Shown piece by piece: positions 6,143 through 45,499 of a stretch of 64,000 nt of DNA. The position numbers and the translations under genes are program-made. The notes below the pieces were generated by a model. That model had not been told where the DNA came from. It saw only the letters and a program-made list of their open reading frames with translations, and made no database searches. This DNA comes from Pomacea canaliculata (lineage: Eukaryota > Mollusca > Gastropoda > Architaenioglossa > Ampullariidae), in the NCBI RefSeq assembly GCF_003073045.1, contig NC_037594.1, positions 20,590,927 to 20,654,926 on the forward strand, given 5' to 3'. Position 1 is the stretch's first letter. The number at the start of each line of letters is the position of its first letter.

Positions 6143-6838
6143 TTAAAATGCATGATGGGGTCCACCTGCGTGACCAGAACCACCACTAAATAACTTCATC
6201 ATCATCTGCATCATCATCATCTGCATCATGGGAGGGGCCTCGCCCATGCTCGTCATCAGCGACGGGAGGATCAGAGGAAGCAGGCTGCTAACTACCCCCG
6301 GGTTACCTCCAGACTGGGCTATTACTAGAGGCAGCAATGAGGCCATATCTGTCGAGAAAAAAGAATGTATTCAAAATCTTGCAAATGTTTCAGGGGGAAT
6401 CATTTGATAAAGTTTATAAACTAATCTAAAAATCGCGAGAAACGTTTAAATTCGTGACGACCAGAAACATGGCCAGCAAAGAGAGACGGAGAGACAAACA
6501 AACAGCAGATATATAGAGAAAATGAGACAGAGATATGAGGGAGAGGTGAAAAAAAGCAAGAAATTTGGCAAAGGGAAGCACAGAAGACTTTATTACAGGT
6601 GATAACGATGATGGAAAAAATATTAACACACGAATAACAGCATAAATATACACTTTTCCATGCGTGAGCACGCACGTTTGTGCACACACACACGCGAAGC
6701 GATCCTGGAGGGACGTGGGAAGAACGGACAGACAAATGCATATTTTACTACTAACATCTACATACTTGGTGGCAATTGGGCATGCACCGTAGGCAGGAAG
6801 ACGACCAGGATCAGAATAAAAGCCACTTGTTTCTTCAT
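6143..6838 (-). CDS. Met-rich secreted protein 1 (92 aa), novel family
   Basis: Two coding exons on the minus strand: 6838-6766 (donor ACCAA|gtatgt) and 6348-6143 (acceptor ctcgacag). They join in phase 1 with no frame error. The first exon encodes a classic signal peptide, MKKQVAFILILVVFLPTVHA, with predicted cleavage before QLPP. The mature protein of about 72 aa is hydrophobic and Met-rich: LLPLVIAQSGGNPG, SSLLPLILPSLM, then PPMMQMMMMQMMMKLF, and ends in a Gly/His tail, GGSGHAGGPHHAF. There is no cysteine and no known domain. A 5' UTR splice acceptor sits just upstream of the ATG (exon begins at 6844). The exon layout and composition match the genes at 35292-36045 and 41133-43200. The function is unknown; a secreted matrix protein is a guess from composition. 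Confidence 0.82.
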
Positions 6839-8624
6839 GATGACCTGCACCACAAAAGATTACCTGATGGTCAGCAAGCATACTCCCCACATTTTACACA
6901 AATCATCTTTTGAAAGTGTTGCCATAATTTCTTTCAGAAGTAAAATATTTCACAAAAAGGAATCTACAAAAGAAACAAAAACTTTTGTTTTTAGGTAAAT
7001 ATCTAAACTGTAAAGGAAAAATGTTTGAATGAAGTTCTAAGACATCGTCTTTAGCAAGTAATTATCTGTATACTTTGGCGAGAACTTTTTGTTTTGTTTG
7101 GCACTACTGTCTGATGAGTCTGGTGATGTTGTGGAAGAATAACAGTAATAGGCAGCACATTTGACAGGTAGTGTTATTAACACAAAATCTGCTAAATTTC
7201 ACTAGTCTTGCCAACTCGGAAATTTGGTGGAACGTTTGAGGTTCGTATGAAACACTAGGGCGGGAAAGTGGTAGCGATAGAGTGAAAATGCCTAGCCAAA
7301 GCTATGTCTTCATTAATTTTTCAAGCAAACAGTTAATGCCGGGGTTAACATGGTTCAGCAGGATCAACGATCAACGCAGGTCCTAGTTTCCTTTGTCAAC
7401 TAGAAAGAATGCATACTTCAGAACCGAAGATCCTGAAGAAGTTTCAGGATGGAAAAAAAAAAAAAAAAAAACTCCCACAATGAGTTATGCGAACCTTTTT
7501 TCTGGCTAGTCTATCTTCACTGATGACTGGCTGAGCTCTTGTATCAAAAAAGACGAAGACAGTATATAAGATGAAATACTGAACGAGTTTATACTCGGTA
7601 ACCCCAACTTAAGCTTTTTAAAAAATAATGTATATACTTATTTTATGAAATTCTTTGTTACTAGTCGCACCAATGTCCTTTGGAACCCCTCGCATATTAG
7701 TAGAAGGGGTAGGTCTCAGTGTTTGGGAGCAATCATTTTCAATGCACCAACTATCAATTTGAGTATTTTAAAAAACTCAAACCTACGCCACCGATGAGCT
7801 CTAAACCAATTTCTGGTTGATTAAATGAAGATTCTGGTTGATTAAATGTCCGAATGTCTGAACCATAACATTAGGTGCGTCATCGGCGTTAGCTGAGGAA
7901 TTAGTCATGACCTGCTCTTTCCCTCTCTTGTCGCTTTTTTTGTATTTCACAGCTCTTGCATTTTAACATGGAAAGTACAATAAGGCACTTGTTAAAAGGC
8001 GAACATGCTAGAAATAGTTCGCTTTTAAGGCTATGACAATCTCCTCTCGTTGTGACCCTTGTTGATGTTCTGTCATTGACGTCCGCTTATTTTCAGAAAT
8101 AATGAAGAAATAAGAAATAAAATAAATAAAACTGTTATAAAAAGAAAAAGGAAATCTTCCTAAAACGGAGATCTACTTTTGCTGTAACCAATACAGTGGA
8201 GGTATGTTAGGAGCGAGATAGACGATGTATTACAAAAATCAAGACAATAAGAAGCCGAAGTATATACATGTATATATATAATTATATATGTCAAATACTT
8301 GACAGTCACCGGATTATTTAGAAGCATAAAAGTGTTTACTGTTTACCAATAACATTTTATATCAGTTAAGGTTTATGTAAACAGAACTTATCTGTCGTGC
8401 TAGTTAGAGACATTTTGATTACCTAGTTGTAAACTCACGATATGTATACTGTATAAGTTTATATATATATTACATTTAGTTCACTTGCTTTTCGTCTGAT
8501 ACAAAAACCCTCATAGAAATCGGAGTGGCTAAAGGAAACGAAGAAGAAAAAAGCAGTCTGTTATAATTATTTTGACCAGTGAACTCTATTCAGGCGACAC
8601 ATTAGGGCAGTCAAAAGACATCAC

Positions 8625-8770
8625 CTGGTAGGTGCGTACAGCAGCCTCAACCGTCTGTCAAGGTCACACGTCGGCGATGGTGGCCGCGACGATGACCAAT
8701 CTCTTCCTTCTTCCAACAGTCTGGTGGTCGTGTTGGCGGTGGCTGCTATTTAAAGGATCCTCTGATGTCA
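8625..8770 (-). promoter_or_regulatory. Candidate promoter and non-coding first exon of Met-rich gene 1
   Basis: On the minus strand a TATA-like TTTAAATAG (8754-8746) is followed about 120 bases later by a good splice donor, ACCAG|gtgatg, after position 8625. A CRE-like TGACATCA (8770-8763) lies just upstream of the TATA box. A perfect CRE, TGACGTCA, lies at 9094-9101. An exon from about 8720 to 8625 could splice to the acceptor at 6845. The link is inferred from the layout shared with the other two Met-rich genes; the transcript is not proven. Confidence 0.45.
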
Positions 8771-14067: not shown

Positions 14068-16375
14068 TTAGACGCCGTCCTTCTCACTGAGAGCCAACCA
14101 CTTCGTGGCCCGACTCAGAAGATAAATCTGCATGCTCATCTCAGACTGCTGAAGAAGGAAGCAGTCTCTACGAGAGATCACAAATCTTTCATTCCACATC
14201 GAGGCATCAACGTAAGCGAGACGAAGGCCAGAGGTATTTCTGAAACAAAATTCAGACATGATCGCCTGAATCTCTCTGAAACGCCGCAGTTCCAGGAAGA
14301 ACTCAATGCCTTCAGCTAACACATTGTCCCAAAAGATCCTGTAGAAATGGTCGTACAAGAGGACATCAGCCATCTGGTACTTTTTGAACAGCAAACGGTC
14401 TTTACTGGACATGACAAATTCAGTTTTATTTTTCCTTGCATTGTTCTTCATGTACAATATGTCTTTCATTCGTAAGCATGCTCTGCGTTTCAAGAGTACA
14501 AGGGACTCTTCGAAATTCTCAGCCACAAGGACAAGGTCAAGATCCCTTCTCAGCGATATCGCGTGGTTGCGAATGTTTCTGGGGTCTCTTTGCTTTTCTG
14601 GAGCCAGCCCCGTGTTGCTAGCAAAAGAATTGTGCAGCTCTGGCTTAGTGGCGTTGAACTGGTGATAGGTCCTTAAAAAGAAGCTTAGAGCCTCCCTCTG
14701 ATCACTAATGTTGAATTTTCTTTGCAAGATTCTGTCCAAACCATAATAGTAGAAACTCGACACAAACCTCTCTTCTGGGCGCCTTATGATGGCGAAGTAG
14801 AAGGTATTATTAGTCATCAGGCGCTGGATATTGGAGCGGTTAAAGATCATGTGGTTGAACATTACATTGTAGTGAGAGCCATTTGCGAGAGGCGGGAAAA
14901 CAGAGTCCCGAGTGATGGCTTCATCAAAGTAGTTGAATCGTTTAGTTTTTGGCACCTGCAACGAAAGTAATAAATGACAATACTGGGAATAGTTTCTCCT
15001 CGATGCGATTAAAACCTACTTTTAGCCATGTATTATCTTGTAAATGTTTTATTCTATAGTTAGGTAGTTATCACCTGTTCAAGATCTGAATAAAAGATGT
15101 ACCTCATCACAATTAAAAAATCTTTTCTCATAAATTAATAAATAACTTTTTGTAAAAATTAATCGTCTAATGTCTAAATATTCTATTTCTATTGAAACAC
15201 ATAGAAACAAAATCTAGAAGAATCATTATTAATGCTTAAAACAGATCACATCATACCTTCTTCTCTCACCCGATACTTTTAAAATTTTGGGAAAAGAACT
15301 TCCGTAAAGGAGAGGTGCTCACAGAAGATACTGGCAACTAGAAAAGTATGGACCCTACCGCTCTACAACACCCAAAACGTTACGAGTCTTTTATTATTTC
15401 TGTTCATTTCCTCATCCACGCTCCCGATCTTTGATAATCACATTCTTTTAAAGACACAAAAGACGAGCACCAAACAGTTCTACAAATTGCAAAGGTCAAA
15501 GGTCTACCTTTTTTGGCAGCGCCACGTGGAGGCCATACCTCAGGGCATAGCGCGCCAGAATGTTAGCGATGGTGCTGCTGGCTGACTTGTGTACCTTGAC
15601 GAACACCATGCTGGTCATGTTTAAATGTTTTAGTCTGCATCCTCTAGACAGGACCGGGGATCCTTCCCAGGAAATCAGGTTCGATATATAAGCAGAAACA
15701 TTAACTCTGCTTGCTCTCGACAATGCCGGGGCGACGGTGATGCTTTGATTCAACTTTCTGGACCTGGTGACTGAGAAGTCATCAGCAGCTGACTCGTTGA
15801 GTAGTGCTTCATGAAATGAATTATCATCGCCTTGAATGTCTTTACTTAAATTGAAATCTCCGCGGACATCAAAACTGTTTACACGACTGCTTTTCTTTGT
15901 CTTTGTCCGATGGTTCCTCAGACTCTTCCTCCGTGCAGGTCTGCTTTGAGGAAAGTCTGTTGGCTCCGAAATTGTTACTTTCTGGTCTTCACTTTCTGTC
16001 CCATTATTTGCCTTGGTCATACGCTGTATAGTTTTGAGTTCTGTGGTGGACCTTCTAAAGAAACCTCTCCATCTTTTTCTGATCTTTCGTCGTATTGGAT
16101 TTTGATGTAGATTTCATTGGTCTCACTGTGGTTATGTTTTTTGCAGAAGTTTTGTTTCCATTTTCAAAATCAAAATATTCTGGACTTTGCAAGCTTTGAT
16201 CTTTTTTCGTGTCTTTAGCATGCAAAGTTCTGACTGTTTCATCGGAAAAAAGAACATATGCACAGAATACGAAGATGAGAATGTTCACAGCCAAAACCAG
16301 GTATCCTCTGCAAACATAAAGGTACCTATTAAAACACTTCTTGTATATATGGTATTGAAACATAGTTACAAACAT
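14068..16375 (-). CDS. Galactose-3-O-sulfotransferase-like Golgi enzyme (copy 1)
   Basis: Family PF06990-type enzymes move sulfate from PAPS to the 3-OH of galactose on glycolipids or glycans in the Golgi. Exon C is 14955-14068 (acceptor gttgcag, stop before 14068) and exon B is about 16020-15508 (donor AAAAAG|gtagac); they join in phase 0. Exon B ends in the 5'-phosphosulfate-binding motif, MVFVKVHKSASSTIANIL. Exon C has the 3'-phosphate motif region FAIIRRPEERFVSSFYYYGL, then RDPRNIRNHAISLRRDLDLV and YDHFYRIFWDNV, typical of the family. The N-terminal piece, 16375-16055, gives a type II topology: a short basic tail, then one membrane span, GYLVLAVNILIFVFCAYVLF, then a Ser/Thr/Asn-rich stem with an NITT glycosylation site. 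That piece runs to a stop and is in a different frame from exon B, so an indel or a missed splice lies in the stem (16020-16110). The catalytic half is open. The substrate is not predictable. Confidence 0.85.
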
Positions 16376-17335
16376 ATTTACAAACCATTAAAATATTCTT
16401 GGGTGTTAAATGCGTTTTGTCTTCTAGTTTATATGCCAGATACATCCTGATAGTTATTATCCAGAAAAAAACCTATTACAATCAATGAATAATCAAAAAG
16501 AAAAGTCAGTCTCGACCACATGTCAATTGGCTGTGTATCAAAGACTCCTGAGACAGAAACGTCTTACATATTAAAAATTAATTTTTTTGCTTGAAAGTCA
16601 CACGAAGCAGTCAAGAAGGATGAAGTGGTGGTCAAACTATGAGTATTAAACTATAGAAGAATAAACTTATATTACAGCTCGATTGCTAGTACTGGCTGGT
16701 GAGTCTCGCAAACAGACTGGAATAAAGAGAGTCTACGTCCACCGAACGTGGGTCAAAATTGAAAGAAAGAAGTATAAAAAGAGGAAAAAGAAAACTCAAA
16801 CAAACCCCCAAGGTGTGCACCAAGTGCAATAAAAACTTAAACAGTGGGTTCTTAGTCGAAACGGCACAAAAGCCCCAGGAGTTAAAATGTTCTTAGTAAG
16901 CCATCAATTTCCCTATTAATATTAATGGTACTCTAGTTTATTAGACTTTTCAACTAATGTGAAAACTGCATGCAAGTGTATATATTATATAGTATAAGTA
17001 AATATTTGACATGATATAGAATATATGCATATAATTATACACATATTTGGGACACACGTGCAGCTTAATATATCAGTATAAGCATTGAATCGCCTTCGAC
17101 TATAGTACTTGTAACAAAGCACTTCTGACTCTTATGTCATGTACACATAACAATACCATAATTCTGAATACTTACAGTCTGACGAAGGATGAGGCCATTC
17201 GTGTTTGTTTGATGAAGCATGACGCCATTTCCAGACGTTCTGCAAGATATGTGCATTCACAGAGTTCACTCCCTACCTCCCAAAAATCCACATACCAAAC
17301 ATATTCTCTTATATTTCTCTATATGATGATATATA
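16376..17335. other. 5' flank of the sulfotransferase gene
   Basis: No gene is supported. The stretch is AT-rich, with a TATATTATATA-like run near 16980-17040 that is partly absent from the matching copy. It repeats at 25915-26864. Confidence 0.5.
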
Positions 17336-18866
17336 CAGTGGAACCTCGGTTAGCAAAACGCCTCGATAGCGAATATTTCAGATAACGAACAAAACATGCG
17401 TTAAAAGTTTGTCTCGGATAGCGAACAAATTTCGGATAACGAAAAACAGCCACGTAAACCACACTGACGACCACTTCATCATTCGCGCTCGAGACACAGT
17501 TACGATCGTTGTTCCTTATCTGTGCGCATCCTTCTTATTTAGTGATTTTTGTGCTTATTTTAATAAGATAATCCTCAATCATGCTCCAAAGAAAAGTCTG
17601 TAGAAAAGTCTTTCCCTAACAGTGCGATAGCAATAGAGCCTAAACATGTTCAATGATAATGTGAATGTATTACCGAAGAGTTTCACAAAAAGCAGAAGCA
17701 ACAGACACTGGACAAGTTTTTCCTTTAACCTCAAAGCGACAGAAAAAGGAAGTTACCTCCGTTTTTACAATGTCACGTGTGCTCATGAGTGGGAATCCAA
17801 TCAGTAATTGTATGTGGGATAGCTGGATTTGAGCAAGAGTTTGGACAGCCAACAACAAGAAAATAAGAAGTAATACAGATAGAACCCTGCTATGAAGTCT
17901 ATCTCAGTAAACTTTTATGGGACCCTTGAATTTCGGCGAAGAAGAACAATCGAGAAGTGACCCTCCTCTACATGATGATGATGATGATGAGGAGGATACG
18001 TTTCGTGCACCCAGCGCAACACGTTTTGACCGCCTGTTGCCTTCCAAGTGATTATAAGCATGAGGGTTTCTTTGTAGGTAAGATGCCGAACCAGTAACAT
18101 CTGTATTATGGAGCAGAATTTTACATTCTATCAAATGCTGAGGGATTTTATTCGTTTAAAAGGAGTCACAAAGCTTTCTTGATGCATAGAAAACTGTGTG
18201 GCATTTAATGATGTTAATAGAGGAGTGTTGTGGAATTTAATGATTTCAGTATAGTTGTTTGCATTGCAGGTTCAATTTATGTCTCTCTTGCACGATGAGA
18301 ATATTTCATAGCCGGGGCGCTGCCGTTTAATGTTTGAATGACTGTAGGTCTTTCATACAGATTTCACATTAAACTATATCATAGCGACGCAAATAACATG
18401 AACAGTAAAATATTCACAGACAAAGAAAATAAACACAGAGGCTACCGGAGTCGGAAAGTCTACCCGTAAAAAAGACTTTTTTTTAAGATTAGAAAACATC
18501 CTTACAAGATCTTCTGTAAATCTTCAGTTATTTGTTTGTACTTAACCTTGGAAAGATTTACATGTCAGTAAAAAAATAATGATGGAATAATGTCTAATGA
18601 TACCAGATAATGATACGTTCAAGATAAGACTTGCCGAATTCAAGTAATCCCCTTTCCATTCTCAAGATACACACCCACAAACATCAGCATCACAGGTCAA
18701 GACACTCGCACAGACGTCAGAGTTGTACATAGCGAATCAACAGGGCTGAGAACCAATTAAATCTATTTCCTTTATTCTTATGGAAAAACTGTTTCGGATA
18801 ACGAACATTTCGATAACGAACAACTTTCCAGAACGGATTATGTTCATTTAACCGAGGTTCCCACTG
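17336..18866 (+). mobile_element. Tigger/pogo-like DNA transposon, internally deleted (copy 1)
   Basis: The element starts with the terminal sequence CAGTGGAACCTCGGTTAGC and ends with its inverted match, ccgaggttcccactg, each flanked by TA, the expected target duplication. Next to the ends are repeated sub-terminal words of the type cggataacgaac. Inside is the start of a transposase (MAPKKSL, seen clearly in the other copy at 27115) followed by stops. At 1.5 kb it is too short for a full Tigger and is non-autonomous. The same element lies at 26865-28439. Confidence 0.8.
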
Positions 18867-19478
18867 TATATAATCATGCACGATTACTATTAACAAATAT
18901 TCATTTAAAAAGCACCTTCATTTGCTCGAGCATGCGTTGTATTAGAGCCATAAAAACACCAATAGAGGTAAAGAAGGGGGTAGGGAGGTCATAGATTGAG
19001 AAAGAAATATATTGATACCACCATGATGTTTGTCTTCTTCAGATGTAAGATGATGAATATCTACTTTATTAGTTTCACTACCAAGTCTATATACATTCTA
19101 GCCAAACTTTCAAATACACTTATAGCTCTTTGTACATTCAACAACAGTGTTTTTAGGTATTTACACAGGCAAACGCTGTTCGTAAGATGCTCACCATTTT
19201 TTTTATCGCTATCCGTTTGGAGGTGCAGGGACGCTTTCAAATTCTAAATTTCTTGGGTTATAATCTTCACTTGTCGTCGAAATGTTGTTTAGAGCACGGA
19301 AACTGTCAACTGACTTCCCTCAAACAATATTTCACCATCGACCAATCGGTCTGTCTGTGGCTAATAACAGCTGTCGTTCAATTTCTGTCAGTGTTGTGAC
19401 GCCCGTTTCCCTGATGGGAGCCGGAACAGACCGTATTCGAGATCAGACAAGTCATCGGTTATATTTAACCTACAAGTA

Positions 19479-20239
19479 CAGCTCGGGTAGCGAACATTAA
19501 TCCGTTCTGAAGTTGTTCGTTATCCGAAACAATTTTTACCGATAAGAAATAAAGGAAATAAAGTTTGAATTTTCCCAGCCAACCTTTTGCTCGTCTAATA
19601 TATGAAAGCTACAGGTCTAAAATGGTATTTTTTTTTTATAAAAAAAGAACAGTTATAATACAATATAAATGAGCTTAATAAACATAAAAAACATACGGAA
19701 TAGCATTAGAACACTTGTCTGTTTTGACTGGGTTGGACAAAGGTTTGGGATTGGAATGTGGGTGAAGTAATATATTACTGCTAATTCCCCATCCCATAAT
19801 GAAGCACTGACATTGTAAAATCTGGGGGTAACTATCCCTTTTCTGTCCTGTATTAGGTTGAATTGGAAAAAAACTTGTTCCAGTGTCTGTTCTTCTGCCT
19901 CTTGTAAAAACTCTCGTAATACGACATCACATTTCATTGACCATGTTTAGTTCCTATTGGCTATCCTATTTTCGGAAAGACTCTCTAATACAGACTTTTC
20001 TTATTGAAATAAAGAAAAAAAATCACTAAATAAGAAGGATGACGCATCACAATAAGGAACAACCGATCGTAACTTGTCTCGAGTGTGAATGATACATGCT
20101 GGTCGTCACGTGTGTTCACGCTGCTGTTCATTAATCCAAATTGTTGTTTCCTATCCGAGACATCATTTTTAGACGATAATTTTTGTTCGTCACCCGAAAA
20201 TAATCGCTATCCGAGCCGTTCGCTAACCGAGTTCCACTG
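19479..20239 (-). mobile_element. Second Tigger-like element, inverted, shorter (copy 1)
   Basis: This is the same family as the element at 17336-18866 but in the opposite orientation and 0.76 kb long. The minus-strand 5' end at 20239 has CAGTGGAAC with tandem cgaacggctcggatagc-like words. The other end, near 19479, is degraded here (cagctcgggtagc) but clear in the matching copy at 30165. It carries the same transposase-start region. TA flanks are visible at the right end. Confidence 0.72.
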
Positions 20240-23200
20240 TATTCGTTCCATAATAATATGCATAAAAAAGAAGACTCACGTTCTTAATGAACTTATTTAC
20301 CCTGTGACATGTAGCTGTTTTTTTAAAATCAGATCAGAATCTTAATAACTGTAACAGCAGCAGCATAATGTCTCCGACTGTAAAGCAAAAACTCCTTGTA
20401 GATGTGATATAGGACATCTAAACACTTGACTGTAATCAATAGATATACACGTCCCTCATCTTACTTGTCCACGGACGCCTGCACTCACATGGCAAGCAAC
20501 ACACATACACGACGTCCGTTTACGTGTTCTTCTTCAAAACATCTTTAAAATAACCATGCTTGAGCTGTCCACGTTAATGTTTATTAAAAGCTCGAATGCT
20601 CAGGTAGACTTACAATTACAAAAACACTTAGGCATAATAAAATCTCCGCCTCTACACAGATAATCTATGGCGGCGATCACATTTCAGCTAAGAATACTAT
20701 ACCAATGTTATCTTGGGCACTTGCTCCGATCAATCACACTTAGCTCTTTAATCTTAATCTCAACTCTTCGTCGTCTATGTGTAGAAACACCCGCTCTCAG
20801 TTTTTCTTTCTTTATCAACAAAGTTCCAATATATTAGCTCAATGATAATCGAACGTTAGTGCACACTTAAAGTTTCTTGGCGACATGAAGTCAACGGTAC
20901 ACCCCCTACACACTGCTGGTGTCTTACATCAGGCGATCGAGGATCGTCTAGATCTACATCAATAGATCCCAGCTCTAACACACAGAACAACAACCTTGCT
21001 AAGCAAAATATGGCCTACACACAAACACAAACTTCTTATAAAAGAATATTATACTGCATCTACTTTCTATTTAAAAAAACACACACCCACCACACTCTCT
21101 TTCATGTCCCAATCCTCTGTTCCTAATATAGTCCAGATGATCTCCCTTCCTCGCCGAAAACTCCTCTTCGATACATCGTTGGGGTTACCACAGCGAAGAT
21201 TAAAGCTAACTCAAAAACCGTACAGACGACTATTCTGACATTCACAAAAATATACTATTAACATCATGGTAAATTAACACCAGTGAAGTGCTAAATTCTT
21301 AATCATTTATTCAGCTCAGTAAGGACTATACGGTAATGACACTATTCCAGTTAATATTTACTAAAATTTAATTTGTAACAATTACCCTTTGAAATGACTC
21401 CTTAGAAGAGCTTGTATAAAATACAAAAGAACAAAGCTCATACTTATAAACATCAAATTATAACTGAAACGGCTGAAACTCAAAGAATTAACTGGTTTGT
21501 GTATGTGTCATTCATGTCTACACTGTTACGGATATCATTAAGATTTCCCTCTAGTTCCACCTAACACAATCATACACAGCTGCTTCATCTATGCAGTTAC
21601 TATTCGTTCCTTCCTACCTCTAATTATGCACACATTGTCCGGGAGTCATCGATCTCACTAGCAAGTTGCCACACAGTATAAATATCCACACGACCATCTT
21701 CATACCCAGTGTCTCTTGCACTAAAACCGCAATCGACCAGATATGTTCTTCTATTAATCCCAAAGATTCAACCGTGGACAAATGAAAGTAGATGATTACA
21801 AAAATTAATTAAATTCTATGTCTTTTAAACTCAAACATTCATCGAAAATCAAGTTAATCCTGAATGAGTTCTTCCCAGCGCGATCATAAAGAGAAAAAGA
21901 AAGAACAAACCTTTGGCCACATCCTGTCTGACTCCAACCAAAAAAGGAAAATACAATAAAAAAACACAGAACCAATGTTACAAATATTCAGACCTTCAAA
22001 TTAATAATAAAACACTTAAATACACCTCAACTAACCAAGCACAAAAATTAAAAAACAAAGAACAAACAAACAAAACAAACAAAAAAAAAGACAGATTAAT
22101 CGTTCATAAAATTCCCTTCATTTCTAAAAATAACCCATGCTACTTGCATTTTTGGATAAAAAAACCTAATATACCACATACCAAATATTGCACAATCTAC
22201 ACATTTCAAAACCCGCAATTTTTAAGAGTCACAAAAATTCTAAGCCTAAATACAGAAATAATAAACATCAAAATCTTTTGAGCTAACTAAATGTCATCGT
22301 GCACTTCCATGCAACAGTACAGAATGATTTTAGCACGATTTCTGACCCTCTTAATGGCAACGTTTAACAATAAATTGCTTTACACACTACACATGCTGAG
22401 CTATAAATACCACATTCAACCCACAGCGCCACTGTAGCTGGAGCGACATAGCAAGGATGTCTTTAGATAAGCTGTACCGCCCTTACCAACGCTAATTAAT
22501 TCTCCATAATTATTGTCAGTCCAATACAACAATTATGCAGCTACAGGAATCATTTTAAATGTCTCTTAACTTCCGCTGAAGATCCCCACCTTCCCTTCCA
22601 ACACAGATGCTAATCGATATCCATCACCAGAATACACCATTGCACTGATACACAAAGCGCCTCTGAAAGCATGGGTTGTGGTTGTCATGCTCCGTGGCAT
22701 TTCAACACGTCTTCTTTTGATTTATTTAGAAGGAATTTTTTAATGGAATAATAAGAACACGAGAAACGAGACATTTTTGTGCTGTACAGCCGCCAGAGTC
22801 TATATCTCGAGAAATTCTTACACTCAAATGAAACAAAACACAAAAAGTACGGAGAATACTAAAAAATGGAAATAAAAAAAATGATTAAACGGAAAAAACT
22901 AAAATATCAAGCGTTAAAAAAAACACAAAGACAAAAAATTCAAAGACTAGCCAATGAGCGTCACAACGAGTTTCCCAACGCAAAAAACACAAAAAAAAAA
23001 AACAGATAGAAAATTCAGAAATACTACTCATAATCAGCTGCAACCCTCAGTGATCTTAATGTCGCATCCTCATGATAAGGCAGCACTTCATCACTAGAAG
23101 AAGACAAACAAAATTTTCACAGTTAATCAAATTCACCGTTCAGGAAAGATTTAAAAATTAGCCTAATCTCTTCTTCTCCCTTTCACTTATTAAATTACCT

Positions 23201-23547
23201 ATTTGCCGAATTCTGAGAAAAAAGTTTTAAACACACAACCACACCAGCCCGACACCAAACCTCTAATAACGAATGAGCCACCCATTTCAAGAAATTCAAT
23301 ACTTGCAAAACAAATACTTACATTTTTCAGATTTTAAATATTATTCTAAATTATATAACAAATAATATTACGCGAAAAAACAGATATTAATACACAGAAC
23401 CACATTTTTAATATTCCCTCATAAAAACGGTCTCATCTTCTATGAACACTGCATAAGTTCATAATTTAAATCAATCATTAACCAACAAATATGTCAAAAA
23501 CTATTCAAAATAAGAAACATACACTGTATCACAACAGATCCTTTTCT
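20240..23547. other. Gene-free tail of left contig, indel-rich
   Basis: No gene is supported. The sequence matches 30941-34780 but is about 0.5 kb shorter through many small deletions, and it is visibly poor in G on this strand, especially at 21900-22300. The open frame near 21913-22281 falls in this depleted stretch and is not believable as a gene. Confidence 0.6.
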
Positions 23548-23647
23548 NNNNNNNNNNNNNNNNNNNNNNNNNNNNNNNNNNNNNNNNNNNNNNNNNNNNN
23601 NNNNNNNNNNNNNNNNNNNNNNNNNNNNNNNNNNNNNNNNNNNNNNN
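23548..23647. other. Assembly gap, exactly 100 N
   Basis: A run of exactly 100 undetermined bases is the conventional placeholder for a scaffold join of unknown size. The sequence on both sides is the same genomic block. Confidence 0.97.
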
Positions 23648-25914: not shown

Positions 25915-26864
25915 ATTTACAAACCATTAAAATATTCTTGGGTGTTAAATGCTTTTTGTCTTCTAGTTTATATGCCAGATACATCCTGATAGTTATTATC
26001 CAGAAAAAAACCTATTACAATCAATGAATAATCAAAAAGAAAAGTCAGTCTCGACCACATGCAAATTGGCTGTGTATCAAAGACTCCTGAGACAGAAACG
26101 TCTTACATATTAAAAATTAATTTTTTGCTTGGAAAGTCACACGAAGCAGTCAAGAAGGATGAAGTGTGGTCAAACTATGAGTATTAAACTATAGAAGAAT
26201 AAACTTATATTACAGCTCGATTGCTAGTACTGGCTGGTGAGTTTCGCAAACAGACTGGAATAAATAGAGTCTACGTCCACCGAACGTGGGTCAAAATTGA
26301 AAGAAAGAAGTATAAAAAGAGGAAAAAGAAAACTCAAACAAACCCCAAAGGTGTGCACCAAGTGCAATAAAAACTTAAACAGTGTGTTTTTAGTCGAAAC
26401 GGCACAAAAGCCCCAGGAGTTGAAATGTTCTTAGTAAGCCATCAATTTCCCCATTAATATTAATGGCACTCTAGTTTATTAGACTTTTCAACTAATGTGA
26501 AAACTGCATGAAAGTGTATTAAATATTTGACATGATATAGAATATATGCATATAATTATACACATATTTGTGACACACGTGCAGCTTAATATATCAGTAT
26601 AAGCATTGAATCGCCTTTGACTATAGTACTTGTAACAAAGCACTTCTGACTCTTATGTCATGTACACATAACAATACCATAATTCTGAATACTTACAGTC
26701 TGACGAAGGATGAGGCCATTCGTGTTTGTTTGATGAAGCATGACGCCATTTCCAGACGTGCTGCAAGACATGTGCATGTCAGAGTTCACTCCCTACCTCC
26801 CAAAAAATCCACATACACAAACATATTCTCTTATATGTTCTCTTATATGATATATATATATACA

Positions 26865-28439
26865 CAGTGGAACCTCGGTTAGCAAACGCCTCGGATAGCG
26901 AATATTTCAGATAACGAACAAAACATGCGTTAAAAGTTTGTCTCGGATAGCGAACAAAATTTCGGATAACGAACAGCCACGTAAACCACAACGTGACCGA
27001 CCAGCTGTCATCATTCGCGCTCGAGACACAGTTACGATCGGTTGTTCCTTATCTGTGCGCATCCTTCTTATTTAGTGATTTTTGTGCTTTATTTTAATAA
27101 GATAATCCTCAATCATGGCTCCAAAGAAAAGTCTGTAGAAAAGTCTTTCCCTAACAGTGCGATAGGCAATAGGAGCCTAAACATGTTCAATGATAATGTG
27201 ATGTATTACCGAAGAGTTTCACAAAAAAGGCAGAAGGCAACAGACACTGGACAAGTTTTTTCCTTTAACCTCAAAGCGACAGAAAAGGGAAGTTACCCCC
27301 GTTTTTACAATGTCACGTGTGCTCATGGAGGGGGAATCCAATCAGTAATTGTATGTGGGATAGCTGGATTTTGAGCAAGAGTTCGGACAGCCAACAACAA
27401 GAAAAATAAGAAAGTAATACAGATAGAACCCTGCTTATGAAGTCTATCTCAGTAAACTTTATGGGACCCTTGAATTTTCGGGAGAAGGAACAATCGAGAA
27501 GTGACCTCCTCTACATGATGATGATGATGATGAGGAGGAGGATACGTTTCGTGCACCCAGCAACACGTTTTGACCGCCTGTTGCCTTCCAAGTGATGATA
27601 AGCATGGAGGGTTTCTTTGTGTGTGAGATGGCCGAGACCAGTGTGTAAGATCGTACCGTTATGGAGCAGAAGTTTTACATTCTATCAAATGCTGAGGGAT
27701 TTTATTTTCGGTTTAAAAGGAGTCACAAAGCTTTCTTGCTGCATAGAAAACTGTGTGGCATTTAATGATGTTAATATAGAGGAGTGTGTGGAATTTAATG
27801 ATTTCAGTATAGTTGTTGGCATTGCAGGTTCAATTTATGTCTCTCTTGCACGATGAGAAATATTTCATAGCCGGAGCGCTGTTTAATGTTTGAATGACTG
27901 TAGGGGTCTTTCATACAGATTTCACATTAAACTATATCATAGCGACGCAAATAACATTAACAGTAAAAATATTCACAGACAGAAGAAAATAAACACAGAG
28001 GCTACCGGAGTCGGAAAGTCTTACCCGTAAAAAGACTTTATTTTTAAGATTTAGAAAACATCCTTACGAAGATCTTCTGTAAATTCTTCAGTTATTTGTT
28101 TGTACGTTAACTTTGGAAAGATTTACATGTCAGTAAAAAACTAATGATGGAATAATGTCTAATGATACCAGATAATGATACGTTCAAGATAAGACTTGCC
28201 GAATTCAAAGTAATCCACCCTTTCCATTCTCAAGATACACACCCACAAACATCAGCATGCACAGGTCAAGGCCACTCGCACAGACGTCAGAGTTGTACAT
28301 AGCGAATCAACAGGGGCTGAGAACCAATTAAATCTATTTCCTTTATTTCTTATGGGAAAAACTGTTTCGGATAACGAACATTTCGGATAACGAACAACTT
28401 TCCAGAACGGATTATGTTCATTAACCGAGGTTTCCACTG
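26865..28439 (+). mobile_element. Tigger/pogo-like DNA transposon, internally deleted (copy 2)
   Basis: Counterpart of 17336-18866. The ends are cagtggaacctcggttagc and ccgaggtttccactg. The transposase start is legible here: ATG at 27115 reading MAPKKSL and then a stop. The remaining interior has no long frame. Sharing between the two blocks means the insertion predates whatever made the two copies. Confidence 0.8.
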
Positions 28440-29019
28440 TATATATCATGCACATTACTATTTAACAATATTTCATTTAAAAAGCACTTTCATTTGCTCG
28501 AGCATGGTTGTATTGAGAGCATAAAACACCAGATAGAGGTAAGAAGGGGGTAGGGAGGTCAGTAGATTGAGAAAGGAAATTAATATTGATGACCACCCAT
28601 GGGATGTTTGTTCTTCTTCAGATGTAAGATGATGAATATCTACTTTTCAGGTATTTCACTACCAAGTCTTATATACAAGTTCTAGCCAAACTTTCAAATA
28701 CACTTATAGCTCTTTGTACATTCAACAACAGTGTTTTAGGTATTTACACAGGCAAACGCTGTTGTTAAGATGCTCATTTTTTTTATCTCGCTATCCGTTT
28801 GGAGGTGGCAGGGACGCTTTCAAATTCTAAGGTTTCTTTGGGTTATAATCTGTCGACTTGTCGTCGGAAAGTGTTGTTTAGACGAGAAAGCTGTCACGTG
28901 ACTGTCCCTCAACACTATTTCACATCGACCAATCGATGTCTGTCTGTTGGCTAATAACAGCTGTTCGTTCAATTTCTGTCAGGTGTTGTGACGCCGTTTC
29001 CTGATCTCATCGGTTACAT

Positions 29020-30142: not shown

Positions 30143-30164
30143 GGTTACATGTTATCTACACGTA

Positions 30165-30940
30165 CAGTGAAACCTCGGTTAGCAAACATAATCCGTTCTG
30201 GAAAGTTGTTCGTTATCCGAAACAATTTTTAACCATAAGAAATAAAGGAAATAGATTTAATTGGTTCACAGCCCTCGTTGATTCGCTAATATATGAAAGC
30301 TACAGGCTAAAAGGTATTTTTTTTTAAAAAAAGAACAGTTATAATACAATATAAATGGAGTTAAATAAACATAAAAACATTAACGAAAGCATTTAAACAT
30401 TAGAACACTTGCTGTTTTGACGTGGGTGGATGAAGGTTTGGGGAGGAAGGGGTGGAATTACTGCTAGGATTCCCCCTCCATGAGCACGTGACATTGTAAA
30501 ATCGGGGGTAACTTCCCTTTTCTGTCGCTGTAAGGTTGAAGGAAAAAAACTTGTCCAGTGTCTGTTGCTTCTGCCTTTTTGTAAAACTATTCGGTAATAC
30601 GACATCGCATTAACATTGAACATGTTTAGACTCCTATTGCCTATCGCACTGCTACGGAAAGACTTCTCTACAGACTTTTCTTTGGAGCCATGATTGAGGA
30701 TTTTCTTATTGAAATAAAGTAAAAAATCACTAAATAAGAAGGATGCGCACAGATAAGGAACAACCGATCGTAACTGTGTCTCGAGCGCGAATGATGACAT
30801 GTTGGTCGGTCATGTGTGGTTCACGTGGCTGTTCGTTATCCAAAATTTTGTTCGCTATCCGAGACAAATTTTTTACGAAATATTTGTTCGTTATCCGAAA
30901 TATTCGCTATCCGAGGCGTTCGCTAACCGAGGTTCCACTG
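30165..30940 (-). mobile_element. Second Tigger-like element, inverted, shorter (copy 2)
   Basis: Counterpart of 19479-20239 with better ends: cagtgaaacctcggttagc at 30165 and ccgaggttccactg ending at 30940. Read on the minus strand it has the same cggatagcgaac/cggataacgaac words and the same transposase start (ATGGCTCCAAAGAAAAG near 30692) as the element at 26865. The two elements lie head to head as an inverted pair. Confidence 0.78.
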
Positions 30941-33900
30941 TATTCGCCCAGTAATAATATGCATAAAAAAGAAGACTCACGTTCTTAATGACTTATTTAG
31001 CCTGTGACATGTAGCTGTTTTTTTTAAAATCCAGGATCAGAATCTGTAATAACTGTAACAGCAGCAGCAATAATGTCTCCGACTGTAAAGCAAAACTCCT
31101 TGTGGATGGTGATATGAGGACATCTAAACACTGAGCTGTAATCAATAGTATACACGGTCCCTCACTGCCACGGACGCCGGTGCACTCACAGGCAACACAC
31201 ATACACGACGTCGTACGTGTTCTTTCAAAACACAAAATAAACATTGCTTGAGGCTGTCGACGTAATGTTATAAAAAGCTCGAATGGCTCAGGACTTACAT
31301 ATTACAAAACACGTATGCATAATAATAGCTCGCCTCTACACAATAACTCTATTGGCGACACACAGCTAAGAATACATACAATGTTTATCTTTGGGGCACT
31401 TCTCCGATCAATCACACTTAGCTCTTAATCTTAATCTCAACTCTCGTCGTCTATGTGTAGGAAACACCTGGCTCTCACAGTTCTGTTTATCAACACAAAG
31501 TTTCAATTATATTAGCTCAATGATAATCAGACGTTTAGTGCTACACTTAAGTTTATTTTCGACACGAAGTCAACGGTATACCCGCCTACACACTGCTGGG
31601 TGTCTTACATCAGGCGATCGAGGAGTCGTCTAGATCTAATCATAGATCAGCAGGGCTCTAACACAATTGCCCGTACACACAGAACAATAAACCTTGGCTA
31701 GGCAAGATATTTGCCTGTACACACAGAACAACAAACCTTGGTTATACAAGATATTATTACTGGCATCTACCTTTCTATCTTAAAACACACACACACTCAC
31801 AGCGTTCTCTTTCATGTCCGCCAATGCCGTCTGCTTCCTTTTATATGTCGCGAGAGTGATCTCCCTTTCCTCGCTGACACTCGAGGCTCTTTGTTACATG
31901 TTGTTTACCAGCAGCGAAGGGATTAAGCTAACTTCAAAACAAGTAGGGACGGAACTGATTCGTGACATTCACAAAAAAAGTATACGTATTAACTAGTCAT
32001 GGTGAAATTAAGCACCAGTGAAGTTGGTTTAAAGTTCTTAATTCAGTTAGTTCTGGCTTTCAGTAAGTCTATGACCTGTAGAAATGACTACTTTATCCAG
32101 TTGTAATTATTGACTAAATGTATTAATTTGTACAATTTTGTACCGCTTTGAAATGACTCCTTAGAAGAGCTGTGTATAAAATACAAAAGACAAGCTCGAT
32201 GACTTATTGAAAACATCAATTATAAGCTGAGAGACGGCTGGTACACGTCAAAGATAACTGGAGTTTGTTTATGGTTGTCATTGTCATTGTCTACAGCTGT
32301 TAGCGGATATCATTAAATTTGTCTCCTCTAAGTTCGCGAGCCTACACACACATACACAGTTGCTGTCATTATGTCAGTTTAACTATTCGTTTAGCCTTCC
32401 TACCTCTACATGGGTTATAGAGCAGCACGTTGTCCCGGGAGGTCATCGATTCACTAGTCAAGTTGCGCACACATGTATAAAATATTTGCCTCCACACGCC
32501 CTTCTTCATACGCCAGCTTGTCTCGTTTGCACTAAAACTGCAGATTCGACCTCAGATATGTTCTATTAACTGCCAAAGATTCAACCGGGGGACAATGATG
32601 AAGTAGATGATTACAAAATTGATTAAATCTATGTCTGTTAAACTCATACATATGTCAGCGGAATCTAAGGGTTAAGGATCCTTGGAATGGGATTCTTCGC
32701 CAGCGGCGATCATAAAAAGGGAGAAAAAAGGAAAGGGAGACAAACACGCTTGCCAACATCCTGTGCTTGACTGGCAACAACAAAAGAAAGGAAAAAATAG
32801 CAATTAAAAAAACAGCAGCAACCAAGGTGTTACAAATATTTAGACGCTCACAGAATTTAAATTAAGAAAAGCGGGACTTAAAATATTTATCAACCTCAAG
32901 CTAAGCAAGACACAAAAATTAAACAAACAAAGAAACAAACAAACAAACAAACAAAAAAAAGGACAGGATTTAATGCGTCAGTCAATATTAAATGTCCTTC
33001 ATTTCTAAATAAATCAACCAATGGCTACTTTGCTATTTTTTTTATTATGGAAAAGCCTTTAGTATATTACTCACATACAAATATGCACAATCTCACGATT
33101 TCAAAACCCTGGCGAAGTTTTTAAGAGTCCAAAATAAATTTAGAGCCTAAATACAGTAAATAATATAAACAGGTCTAAAATTCTTTTGGAGCTAAGCTAA
33201 ATGTCATCGTTGCACTTCCAGTTGTCAACAGTGACAGTAAATGTTATTTTTGAGCTACGTATTTCTGGACGCGCTCTTTAATGGGCGAACGTTTTAACAA
33301 TAAATTTGCATTTGTTTGACACACTGACACATGCTGATGCTAGTAAATTTACGCAATACATTACAAATTCCCACAGCAGCGCACTGTATGCTTTGGGAAG
33401 AGCGGCGACAATTTATTGCAAGGATGTCTTTTAGGGGAGATAAGCTGGTTTACCTGCTCCTTGACACAAGACGCTAATGAATTGCTGCCATAATTATGTC
33501 AGCACAATGACAGACAAGTTGAGTGCGAGCTACAGGAAGTCATGTTTTAAAATGTCTCTTACTTCCGCTAAAATGTCCACCGTTCCCTTCCTAGGACACA
33601 GTATGCTAATTCTTGATGTCCATCACTCAGGCAGGTACGGCCATTGGCACTGGAGTGACGACAAGGGATGCGCTCGTAAATGCATGGGTTGTTTGGGTTT
33701 GTTCATGTGTGCATCCGTGGCATTTCAACTGACGTCTTCTTTTGATTTATTTAGAGGATTTAATTGGATAAAATAAGAACAACGAAGAAAGGACAGACAG
33801 ACATTTGTTTTTTGTTGCTTACAGCCGTGCCAGAGGCTATATCTCGAGAAATTCTGCTACACTCAAATGAAACAAAACACAAAAAGTTATGCGGAGAATA

Positions 33901-35291: not shown

Positions 35292-36045
35292 TTACGCTAC
35301 CGCGTGACCTAACAGCATGGAGGCGATGGGGTTGGAGGTGAGACCCCCTCCGCCATTCATGAGTAGAGGCACCATCATGGCCGCGCTGGGGTCAAATCCG
35401 CTCATCATCATTGGAAGCATCATCTTTATCGCTCCGTGGCCTTGCGTGCCACCGCCTCCTTGGGCCAACATGGCCGGGGCAATAAGCTTGTGGAAGTCGA
35501 TTCCCAGAGCAGAGGACAACATAACCATGCTAAGCGGGTTCTGCAGTGAAAAAGGGGCCTGTACTGGACCTGTGCCGGTTCCCAAGATTGATGGGTCTCC
35601 AAATCCTCCGAAACCTTGACCTGAGCGAAGACAGACACAAAGAAAATCTTCAGGCACGCGAAGTCAGAGTAATCTGAGGATAGGTTAATCATAACTATTG
35701 AGAATTTGCTCAAGATGGAAATGAAATTTACCTTAATGTTGGCGACAAGCTAATGAAACGTGTCACTACTATTAGTTTGAAACAAAAATGACTCTTGGAG
35801 TTAGGGTTAATGATTTTGTTAGAAAAAAACCAGCAGGCATATTGATACAAATTCTAACTTCTGACATCAAGGAAGGAAGGCGTTACACAGAGGGCATGAC
35901 TAATGAGGTGTTGCCATCATGGCATATGTCTACTCCGTGACTTGTGTGCTGATCACTTTGGCCAAATAAAAGCTTCAGGATTGATCCACCCACCCAGAGC
36001 TGTGGAGCAGATACCCAGGAAAATCAGGAGAACTGGAACCTTCAT
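35292..36045 (-). CDS. Met-rich secreted protein 2 (126 aa), novel family
   Basis: Two coding exons on the minus strand: 36045-35994 (donor CTGG|gtgggt) and 35620-35292 (acceptor cttcgctcag). They join in phase 1 and stay open to TAA. The signal peptide is MKVPVLLIFLGICSTALG. The mature protein starts GQGFGGFGDPS, has a Pro/Gly segment (GTGTGPVQAPF), a hydrophobic part with SMVMLSSALGIDF, and then the family hallmark AIKMMLPMMMSGFDPSAAMM with Gly-rich linkers GGGGTQGHG and NGGGG. There is no cysteine and no recognised domain. A 5' UTR exon boundary lies upstream (acceptor tatttgcag, exon from 36107). Intron phase and position equal those of the other two family members, which supports common descent. 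The donor is not a strong consensus, so the first exon boundary is slightly less certain than in gene 3. Confidence 0.82.
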
Positions 36046-37339: not shown

Positions 37340-37446
37340 CTGCCAATGGAGCAGACCGGTTCCAAACTTCTGGAGGACAAATAATAGGTAAATGCCAGGC
37401 GTTGGAAAGAACTGTCCTCTCACCTTTATAAAGGCTCGTGACGTAA
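37340..37446 (-). promoter_or_regulatory. Candidate promoter and non-coding first exon of Met-rich gene 2
   Basis: On the minus strand there is a good TATA box, TTTATAAAGG (TATAAA at 37430-37425). A CRE-like TTACGTCA (37446-37439) lies directly upstream. About 85 bases downstream is a strong donor, TTGGCAG|gtatgtg, after 37340. A further donor-like site, CCCCGG|gtaagtc (exon end 36278), suggests an additional or alternative 5' UTR exon before the coding exon that begins at 36107. Assignment to this gene rests on strand, distance and the lack of any other gene. Confidence 0.6.
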
Positions 37447-41132: not shown

Positions 41133-42838
41133 TTATATGGCAGGTGCTCCAAAGCCACCAGACAGACCACCTCCTCCTCCCAAGAGTCCAGCGGATCCCG
41201 CTCCAGCTGCAGTGGGATCGGCAGCTGCGCCAGCACCGCCCCCTAAGCCGCCGTTCATCATCATCAGCGGCAGCATCCTCATCATGGTGTCAGCTCCTCC
41301 ACCACTCATGCCCATCATCATCGGGAGCATCATGGGGTCGGCCATCCCGCCGCCGCCGCCGCCATGTCCACCAGCGCCACCGCCATTCATCATCATCATC
41401 ATCAGCATGGGCATCATGCTCTCGCTCATTCCACCGCGATTCATCATCATCAGCGTCATGGGGTTTATACCGCCTCCTGCTCCTCCTCCAGAGCCGCCTC
41501 CCATGCCGTTCATCATCATCATCATCGGCATCATGTTGGTCATGTCCATGCCAGAGCTCATCATCATCGGCAACATCATGCTCATTGGGTCGCCGGCACC
41601 AGCACCGCCGCCACCAGCACCACCCTGTCCCATCATCATCAACATTGGCAACATGGCGCCCATCTCACCACCTCCACCTCGGGCCATCATCAGAGGAGCC
41701 AGAGATCCTAGGCCTCCAAGCTGGGCTGTAAGAAAAAAGAAGGAGACAATAGAGAAATTGGTCCCAAGCATAAGGTTTTCTGTTTCCCTTTTTTCTCTGT
41801 GTGTGTTTCCAGCTGGTTTAAAATTTATCTTCCTTTTCTGTCCATAACTCAAAGCTAAGAAGTAAGTTAAAAATGGAGCAGAAATGTCAGCAGCCGTCTG
41901 TTACAGGTATGATTTACATCATAAACTCTGCGTCCCCTAGCCATCCATCACACCCTAACTCTTGTCTTCCCCCCTGACCCCTAACCTTTCTCTGGGATTA
42001 ACGTTGCTTTTAAAATTCCGTCTTCCGAACAAAGGGTGTTGTGTGTCACATGAGGGGGACCTTTCTTTCCGTCAGCGTCACGCAACAGATGGCAGGACTG
42101 TCACGATTATCATTTGTCATGCGACGAGCCTGTCACGAGCGTTAAGACAGGGAGGAGAGCGCGGGGTGAGGGTGGGGAGAGAAGCAGCATAGGAGAGGGG
42201 TGGGAGCTGCAGACAAGAATAGCAGCCTGTCTTCGCATATCACACCGGCCATCTTTCACTGTCTCCCAGACAATTACAACTTCCTGCTGCCTCAAGCCTA
42301 CGGGTGTCACACTCACCAGAAAATCCTTTATGCATCAACGATGTCTTTGTTTCGCCGTGTTGCAGATTAGTGTTTTAAAATTCACAAATTTTTAAAATGT
42401 GGGGCAGCTGGTCTAAAATATCTCGCTAGAAAGTGCAACGTAATTCATTTCGTTAAAGTTTATACAGTTTACTTTTTTATTTTATGATTTATTTATTTTG
42501 TTCCATTTTCTACAAGTTGAGCTAAGTAAAAATGTTATCTCCCCAAATCCGAATAAGTACTCTCCCCTTCTTCGTTCTCGTGATGAATGCATAGCAACAT
42601 TCGCATTAACAGAAAGCAAGAGGAGAGACACTTGATGTAGACCGTACATGGCTTCTCTCATGTTGTCAAGTGCGAAGCTAACGGAAAAGCTGGACAATGT
42701 GTTAATAAGGCTAACTGTTGACCTTTTCGTGACGTCATGGTTCTTGACCTCTTTGTGTGATGCTATATTCTTATATTGAGAATGGAGTGAAATAACATCT
42801 TTTGTTGAGCGATTTGTAAATGTTTCCCTTGAAGATTT

Positions 42839-42870
<32 letters not shown>

Positions 42871-43200
42871 AATAATAATAATAATAATAAATTTTGCACG
42901 CTTCTGTGCTAGGTGACTGAACTCTGGTATATCAACAGTGAAAATATTCCAGCCTTTTTATAGCTTTATAAATATAGTTTTCATAAAGATCTGTTTCTAA
43001 AGAAATGGAAAACTTAGATGAGGGAAAAAAAAAAAAAAAAGAAAAAAAAAGAGATGCTGGTCAGAAAGAAAGGATGGAATGAAAGGAAGGAGGATTCAAA
43101 AAATCTGAATGTGACGGAGAGTAGTTGTGTGTGTGTGTGTCTTACCAGATGCAATAGCAACAAAACCCGCAAGAAAAACCGCAACCTTTGGGGTGTTCAT
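41133..43200 (-). CDS. Met/Gly-rich repetitive secreted protein 3 (215 aa), novel family
   Basis: Two coding exons on the minus strand: 43200-43146 (donor ATCTG|gtaaga) and 41725-41133 (acceptor ttcttacag). They join in phase 1 and are fully open. The signal peptide is MNTPKVAVFLAGFVAIASA, cleaved before QLGG. The mature protein of about 196 aa has about 50 Met (a quarter of all residues) plus abundant Gly and Ala. About seven modules alternate a Met block (MLPMLMMM, MMLPMMM, MMPMMMMMN, MMPMLMMMMMN, MLPLMMMN) with a Gly/Ala linker that often ends in DP or NP. The tail is Gly/Ala/Leu-rich (GLLGGGGGLSGGFG). There is no cysteine, almost no charge and no known domain. The 5' UTR acceptor tgttttcag starts the coding exon at 43220. 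A structural extracellular matrix role is plausible from composition only. Confidence 0.87.
42839..42891 (+). repeat. Compound (AAC)n(AAT)n microsatellite
   Basis: About ten AAC units pass directly into about seven AAT units. It lies in the intron of Met-rich gene 3. Confidence 0.95.
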
Positions 43201-44456: not shown

Positions 44457-44561
44457 TGCTAAAACGAGGCATCAGACGACATAGCTTCCGGTTTATTCAC
44501 ATTTCAGATTAGCTACTAAAACGAAGCATCAGACGACAAAGCTTCCGGTTTATTCAGATTC
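44457..44561 (+). repeat. 57-bp tandem duplication
   Basis: The word gcatcagacgac followed by agcttccggtttattca occurs twice at a spacing of about 57 bases with few mismatches. It lies in the presumed 5' UTR intron of Met-rich gene 3. Nothing suggests coding. Confidence 0.8.
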
Positions 44562-45398
44562 TTTGTTACAGCTAGCCGAGACTAACAGCGGACCACTTCG
44601 CAAGAGGCTAAGCGTTGGTCTTGGCAGACAGACAGCAGTCCACCTATTCACGTCCATAGTAAAACTACACACAACATATCTAACTGTGAGTCAAAGTAGC
44701 CCTCACATGGAGTTTGTGGAGACTTGCTTAGATAAAATAAAAGCTATTTCACTATGTGTGTAGGTACGCCGCCGGCTTTTTTCTGTTCAAGTGTGTTGTA
44801 AAGGCCTTTTAAACAATCCTGGGCACATTGTACTACATGCAAGTAGAAGACTATACTCAATCTACAATTACATATACTGTTAAAAAAATAACATTTTTCT
44901 AAAGCAGCGAGTGGTTGAGTTGGCAAGTAGTCAAATCGACCAGCCCCTAATTTTTTATCGTCTGTATTTCTTGAGGTATTAGTTCCTTTTTCTAGTATTT
45001 TGGAATGCAACCCTACTTAAGACTTTGTCGAAGATCACTAAAAAGAAAGAGTTTCCGACAGACTTTATCTGAAATTCGTGTTACATGCTTTGCCTTCGAG
45101 AAACACTATAGTATCAAATGATAAATCTGATGATGGCATAGCTAGCATTTAATATTCTGGAATAAAACCTATTAAAGACATGAAGGATATTATTCTTACG
45201 TAGTTGTAGATGTTGGTTTTTCATGAGAAAAAATTTTATGAATAGGCAAAGAGATGTAATGAAGAATAACGATGAAAATCCAAACAATCAGAATAAAGAC
45301 ATCCCGCTGAAATATAGATCATGTAATGCAAAAAAAAAAAAATGTCAAAGAACAGCTGACAACAGCTGGACAGCTGCCTGTCCTGTTTAACGACTCAC

Positions 45399-45480
45399 CT
45401 TTTGACAGCCTGACTTTCGACGTGCTAGACCTGGGGTAGTGAGGACAAGTGGTGGCAAACAGGTCTCAAGCTCCTTTTAT
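45399..45480 (-). promoter_or_regulatory. Candidate promoter and non-coding first exon of Met-rich gene 3
   Basis: On the minus strand a TATA-like GGAATAAAAGG (ATAAAA at 45480-45475) is followed about 80 bases later by a strong donor, TCAAAAG|gtgagtc, after 45399. The exon of about 50 bases would splice to the acceptor at 43221, across a 2.2-kb intron. A perfect CRE, TGACGTCA, lies 310 bases upstream at 45790-45797. The long C- and T-rich sequence on the plus strand here reads as a purine-rich tract upstream of the promoter. Confidence 0.55.
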
Positions 45481-45499
45481 TCCCCTCTTGCAGGACTTT

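Follow-up and report, generated by a model that had tools for sequence, protein, structure and literature searches.

The genome of the apple snail Pomacea canaliculata contains a set of at least seven genes, arranged in two clusters approximately 3 Mb apart on the same chromosome and strand, whose predicted products are short secreted proteins built around blocks of Met and Leu. The first cluster lies within the window, by which we mean the whole 64,000-nucleotide stretch of DNA analyzed here (RefSeq assembly GCF_003073045.1, contig NC_037594.1, forward-strand positions 20,590,927 to 20,654,926), and comprises genes A, B and C. All seven gene models feature a signal-peptide exon, a phase-1 intron and a single last exon. 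We propose, at what we judge to be even chances, that the products are secreted, self-associating structural proteins of an extracellular matrix, be it shell, periostracum, operculum or egg capsule. The set of genes is real, of a chemical kind known from mollusc matrices, and apparently undescribed within the literature searched: no description of these genes was found there, most subscription papers lying outside its scope.

Genes A, B and C each read from an ATG through a signal peptide, predicted from hydropathy and by eye, to a phase-1 GT, and then from an AG to the stop codon with no further intron. The introns measure 417, 373 and 1420 nt, respectively, all three being GT-AG and phase 1, and the predicted proteins, including the signal peptide, comprise 92, 126 and 215 aa. 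These splice sites were picked by eye, from the donor and the polypyrimidine tract, among many legal GT-AG pairs (30 legal models for A, 42 for B and 96 for C, where the chosen model was read by eye and falls outside the 14 listed). The original prediction placed three minus-strand genes of this exon design at these positions, which sequence reading and splice models bear out. Its description of the mature part as devoid of Cys also agrees with the composition counts, since the last exon (exon 3) of A, B and C contains none; the single Cys of gene B lies within the signal peptide.

Table. Coding exons and putative non-coding first exons of the three genes in the window (window coordinates).
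Feature	Position	Strand	Basis
Gene A first exon (putative, non-coding, with approximate start); TTTAAATAG upstream at 8754; donor ACCAG|GTGATG	8625..8724	-	by eye, putative
Gene A signal-peptide coding exon (MKKQVAFILILVVFLPTVHAQLPP), phase-1 donor	6766..6838	-	sequence reading and splice-model scan
Gene A last exon (NMASLLPL... to stop), 17.6% Met	6143..6348	-	sequence reading, composition
Gene B first exon (putative, non-coding, with approximate start); TATAAA at 37430; donor GGCAG|GTATGT	37340..37400	-	inferred
Gene B signal-peptide coding exon (MKVPVLLIFLGICSTAL), phase-1 donor	35994..36045	-	sequence reading and splice-model scan
Gene B last exon (GQGFGGFG... to stop), 11.1% Met	35292..35620	-	sequence reading, composition
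Gene C first exon (putative, non-coding, with approximate start); AATAAAAG near 45481; donor AAAAG|GTGAGT	45399..45450	-	by eye, putative
Gene C signal-peptide coding exon (MNTPKVAVFLAGFVAIAS), phase-1 donor	43146..43200	-	sequence reading
Gene C last exon, 25.4% Met and 31.5% Gly, eight Met/Leu blocks	41133..41725	-	sequence reading, composition

A protein search of the whole genome with gene C gave a weak match 2.95 Mb away on the same contig (E 0.0032). The 100 kb around this match contain four further minus-strand genes of the same design, D1 to D4, at 23.568–23.589 Mb of NC_037594.1. Their products measure 98, 116, 99 and 105 aa, and their last exons encode 13–38% Met, with that of D4 reaching 38% Met and 32% Gly. 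In D1 and D2 the signal-peptide exon also encodes extra residues past the signal peptide; the D2 exon was missed by the exon scans and was read by eye. The proposed cluster of three genes is thus correct as to local clustering but not as to number. Searches by Met content and by profile across 124 kb, comprising the window and its flanks, found no fourth member of the first cluster. Between the clusters (2.9 Mb) and in the remaining genome, coverage was by single-protein and pattern searches only, and these would overlook any member as distant from the known ones as A, B, D1, D2 and D3 are from each other.

Putative non-coding first exons were also read by eye for D1, D2 and D4, and none was found by eye for D3. 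A canonical TATAAA followed by a donor occurs in B, D1, D2 and D4, A and C possess variants only, and D3 has neither form. A common promoter is a suggestion rather than a result, because TATA-like sites with donors turn up elsewhere in the same stretches too. Poly(A) signals are found 85–721 nt after the stop codon in all seven genes, which in AT-rich DNA and without a control is a weak sign at most.

The window holds several other features. A segmental duplication of approximately 5.3 kb (14128–19415 versus 23648–29005, 93.1% identical), with a further 2 kb at 80% (19457–21500 versus 30143–32268, the end being set by the query), contains part of a galactose-3-O-sulfotransferase gene (PF06990) between genes A and B. 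In the second copy, no listed ORF of at least 110 aa matches the C-terminal exon of this gene. On the minus strand, positions 58654–62600 encode ricin B lectin (PF00652) and Glyco_transf_7C (PF02709) domains, in pieces resembling a GalNAc-transferase gene, of which the ORF at 62247–62600 alone has no Pfam match. ORFs similar by eye lie just to the right of the window (NC_037594.1:20657407–20660775), perhaps forming a tandem GalNAc-transferase pair. An ankyrin-repeat protein with a SOCS box (PF00023, PF07525) is encoded on the plus strand at 2533–3525. At positions 20001–24000 the plus strand is rich in C and A (GC skew -0.27, AT skew +0.14), which sets this 4-kb step apart from the fifteen others of the window. 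Rfam and tRNA searches of the window returned nothing.

The mature parts of the proteins comprise hydrophobic Met/Leu blocks, mostly arranged around a Pro (LLPL, MLPMMM), between Gly/Ser-rich linkers. In gene C, the blocks comprise 4–10 residues, seven of the eight contain Pro, and Gly-rich linkers separate them. The original description, MMLPMMM blocks and Gly linkers, is most apt for C and D4, partly so for B and least so for A. Over all seven genes the last exon encodes 11–38% Met and 7–32% Gly (13–32% Gly in A, B and C), with no Cys in any of the seven. Net charge ranges from -4 to +5, Lys/Arg number 1–7 each (seven in D3), Phe/Trp/Tyr number 0–5, and Gln makes up 1.0–4.6% in all seven. 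The last exons of A, B and C have a GC content of 53–60%, whereas the window as a whole stands at 39.5%, and Gly, Leu, Pro, Ala and Ser are each encoded in them by a mixture of synonymous codons; therefore the protein, rather than a trinucleotide DNA microsatellite, appears to be kept by selection.

Codon patterns were also searched across the 440 Mb genome. MLPMMM gave seven matches, four within the family and three outside it (backwards control 0), and MMAMxNP gave two, one in D2 and one in D3 (control 0). An LPLMMM-type pattern gave 39 matches in the genome, one of them in the family (control 3), and M[M/L]PM[M/L]M gave two, both in gene C, with two also in the control. The MLPMMM and LPLMMM-type matches outside the family number 41. 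Among the 32 of these that were read, ten carry a Met run of at least six, most others are short or ordinary ORFs, and none displays Met blocks alternating with Gly linkers; two stretches of 23–24 residues contain 2–3 Gly.

Whether the seven genes form one family was assessed by alignment, profile and search. Their alignment reveals a common order of LLPLMM, a Gly/Glu stretch, PLMMMM, NP, MLPL, GSD, MMM and GG. A profile of the seven, with the B, C and D4 pieces trimmed by hand, was run against 5,884 real and 5,895 reversed ORFs and puts its own seven training sequences, and no other ORF, above threshold. When each gene is left out in turn, the profile recovers C (E 1.7e-7), D4 (7.6e-5) and D1 (2.4e-4), i.e. 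three of seven at E <0.001, and ranks B (0.13), D3 (0.2) and D2 (0.4) each as the best non-training ORF, at values that are not significant. Gene A escapes the profile built from the six others, scoring 3.8 bits versus 8.6 for an unrelated ORF. The left-out score was reached by none of 200 shuffles for six of the seven genes and by one of 200 for A; among the 21 pairs, 13 were reached by at most 10 of 1000 shuffles, and A–D1 and B–D3 did no better than shuffles (550 and 534 of 1000), figures which flatter the family because shuffling breaks runs such as MMMM. Low-complexity runs can inflate both pairwise and profile scores.

In single-protein searches of the whole genome, the match of gene C described above is D4, and the reverse search returns C at E 0.139; with A, B, D1, D2 or D3 as query, no further member appears at any E value up to 10. 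Two further weak matches lie on other contigs, C3 (E 0.69 with A) and C8 (E 0.41 with D2). Because single members find themselves and little else, paralogy cannot rest on pairwise search. DNA similarity between the genes is located in the last exon, and C and D4 are 72% identical over 169 nt; no shared DNA was detected outside the last exon at E 0.01 on the same strand in the stretches compared. Nor does exon design by itself say much about paralogy, since genes for secreted proteins commonly carry a phase-1 intron behind the signal peptide. From their sequences, the six genes B, C and D1–D4 are probably related. Gene A, whose membership rests on its place, its architecture and a short shared motif, is a candidate and likely member. 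The three genes of the window had been described as paralogs, which the leave-one-out profile supports clearly for C and weakly for B, and which sequence supports only weakly for A. The broader description of a strongly diverged, locally clustered, predicted secreted family rich in Met, Leu, Pro and Gly is supported by the gene models, composition and alignments.

No Pfam family was detected for any of the seven proteins, and no NCBIfam family for the four tried. A single match to a designed alphabody in the PDB, with C as query (E 0.0054), was judged to reflect composition. AF2 modeling of C from its single sequence predicts eight short helices roughly on the blocks, joined by unstructured linkers, at low confidence (mean pLDDT 53.8); for D3, modeled from the seven-row alignment, two helices are predicted, again at low confidence (mean pLDDT 53.7).

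Methionine-rich proteins are known from mollusc shells. MRNP34 is reportedly a methionine-rich nacre protein, said to have been described by Marie et al. in 2012; by description it is like the snail set in kind and differs in its bivalve origin. A shell proteome of P. canaliculata is likewise said to have been published by Liu et al. in 2023. Abductin, reportedly characterized as the scallop hinge elastomer by Cao et al. in 1997, is a secreted, low-complexity mollusc protein dominated by Gly and Met, with a single Met and a Phe spaced in a Gly decapeptide. In the snail proteins, by contrast, Met residues group together with Leu and Pro in blocks, and aromatic residues in the last exon number one in C and none in D4. 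By eye, the Gly-rich decapeptide repeat with a single Phe and Met is absent from all seven sequences, in which Met stands in runs.

A chemical likeness exists to proteins of pearl oyster shell and ligament. According to the available text of one study, a Met-rich region is shared by most of the proteins identified in the fraction of Pinctada nacre, prisms and ligament that neither acid nor detergent dissolves, and cross-linking through Met has been suggested for them (PMC7591529). These include NU-5, P,NU-5 and LMP of Pinctada fucata, matrix proteins whose Met-rich regions recall those of the snail set. The study reports no homologs for NU-5 and P,NU-5; a recombinant piece of NU-5 forms aggregates when calcium is present, and knock-down of NU-5 leads to disturbed nacre (PMC7591529). 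As described, NU-5 (~180 kDa) contains Glu- and Ser-rich regions as well, and P,NU-5 (~45 kDa) has an additional region rich in Asp; the snail proteins differ in being 92–215 aa long before signal cleavage, weakly charged and provided with Gly linkers. The ligament proteins, including LMP, are described as having a Met but no acidic region (PMC7591529), as in the snail set. Among gastropods, the accessible account of the abalone shell lists three Met-rich proteins of Haliotis asinina, ML5A7, ML6A10 and ML8B1, with 7–11% Met and no similarity to other proteins, and cites work in which poly-methionine domains stabilize calcium carbonate precipitation (PMC2989941). Unlike the snail set, these feature Gln-rich domains (38% Gln in ML8B1) or Ala/Pro-rich ones (ML6A10) (PMC2989941); Gln-rich tracts of this type are not present in the last exon of any of the seven snail genes. 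The Glycine-rich boundary protein of Haliotis nacre, described as a major component in H. laevigata, has a high content of Gly, as well as of Ala, Gln and Met (PMC6003135); by this description it resembles the snail set, which however is not Gln-rich. These partial descriptions support the predicted resemblance in kind to Met-rich matrix proteins of molluscs (PMC7591529, PMC2989941). By analogy, our best guess is that the snail set, chemically like the Met-rich insoluble proteins of the pearl oyster, works as that kind does.

The simplest reading is that C and its relatives would act as hydrophobic block copolymers, secreted and then self-associating. Hydrophobic packing may bring the Met/Leu blocks of the secreted chains together, with the Gly linkers remaining flexible, and block number, eight in C and a few in the others, would set chain length. 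Such chains could form a water-poor, insoluble scaffold or film in a gland-made extracellular structure such as shell or periostracum, operculum or egg capsule. The copies would stem from old duplications and have diverged strongly because composition and block pattern were kept rather than exact sequence. Acidic residues and Tyr, Lys and Cys, although common in mineral-binding or cross-linked matrix proteins, are scarce, which counts against a matrix role.

Instead of forming one family, separate genes might have converged on a Met/Leu/Gly composition, or ATG microsatellites might have made the ORFs, which we consider improbable. ATG tracts do produce Met runs elsewhere in the genome, and the failure of the leave-one-out profile to recover A, along with the modest values for B, D2 and D3, would suit this explanation. 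It sits poorly with a signal exon and phase-1 splice site in seven of seven genes, with their grouping in two tight clusters on one chromosome and strand, and with the restriction of the MMAMxNP codon pattern to D2 and D3. The DNA identity between C and D4, the mixed synonymous codons of A, B and C, and the lack of block and linker alternation in the outside-family matches read also argue for a family.

Other functions may be envisaged for such a family. An adhesive, mucus or cuticle-like secretion, of the foot or operculum attachment and with no mineral role, would be served equally well by signal peptides, low complexity and strong divergence; known adhesives, however, are enriched in Tyr, Lys or Cys, and none of these is enriched in the seven last exons, leaving this function rather unlikely. 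Clustered Met could alternatively bind Cu(I) or Ag(I), as in copper loading or buffering for hemocyanin or oxidases, given that Met clusters are copper(I) ligands in membrane copper transporters and that Met makes up so large a part of D4. Yet Met content varies more than threefold across the set, Leu or Phe occupy like places (LLPLFF, SLLPLVI), and by eye the alignments contain no conserved MxxM or His spacing. Since Leu and Phe often stand in for Met, hydrophobicity rather than sulfur or metal binding appears to be kept, and metal handling is the least credible of these functions. A narrower form of the matrix reading, set against a role in the shell, would have the proteins made in the capsule gland or the albumen gland for the calcareous capsule that surrounds the aerial eggs, where they might help to hold vaterite. 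According to the available text of PMC13394694, the capsule of P. canaliculata is distinguished by its own set of proteins, among them a group without conserved domains; the capsule matrix stabilizes vaterite in vitro, and the capsule is called a newly evolved biomineral, which would suit a lineage-specific family. The effect of poly-methionine domains on calcium carbonate noted above (PMC2989941) points the same way, but methionine, repetitive and like terms were not found in the main text of PMC13394694, and we regard an egg-capsule role as unlikely, if somewhat less so than an adhesive one.

A structural role in an extracellular matrix remains the reading we prefer. Within it, one may speculate, at long chances, that an apple-snail-specific expansion produced its own kind of material, a weakly charged, Cys-free, Met-packed scaffold that dispenses with acidic, tyrosine or disulfide chemistry, possibly as the organic mold of the vaterite egg capsule, itself newly evolved. 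Homology searches miss such genes, which have no Pfam family and are nearly invisible to pairwise comparison; gene architecture and neighborhood are the best way to find them. Met-rich regions recur in the insoluble fraction of the pearl oyster shell, and their function is described in the available text as hardly studied (PMC7591529). The proposed snail family is compact, offers at least seven natural variants and reaches 38% Met in the last exon, which is otherwise rich in Gly, Leu, Pro and Ser; it would allow the role of Met blocks to be tested in isolation.
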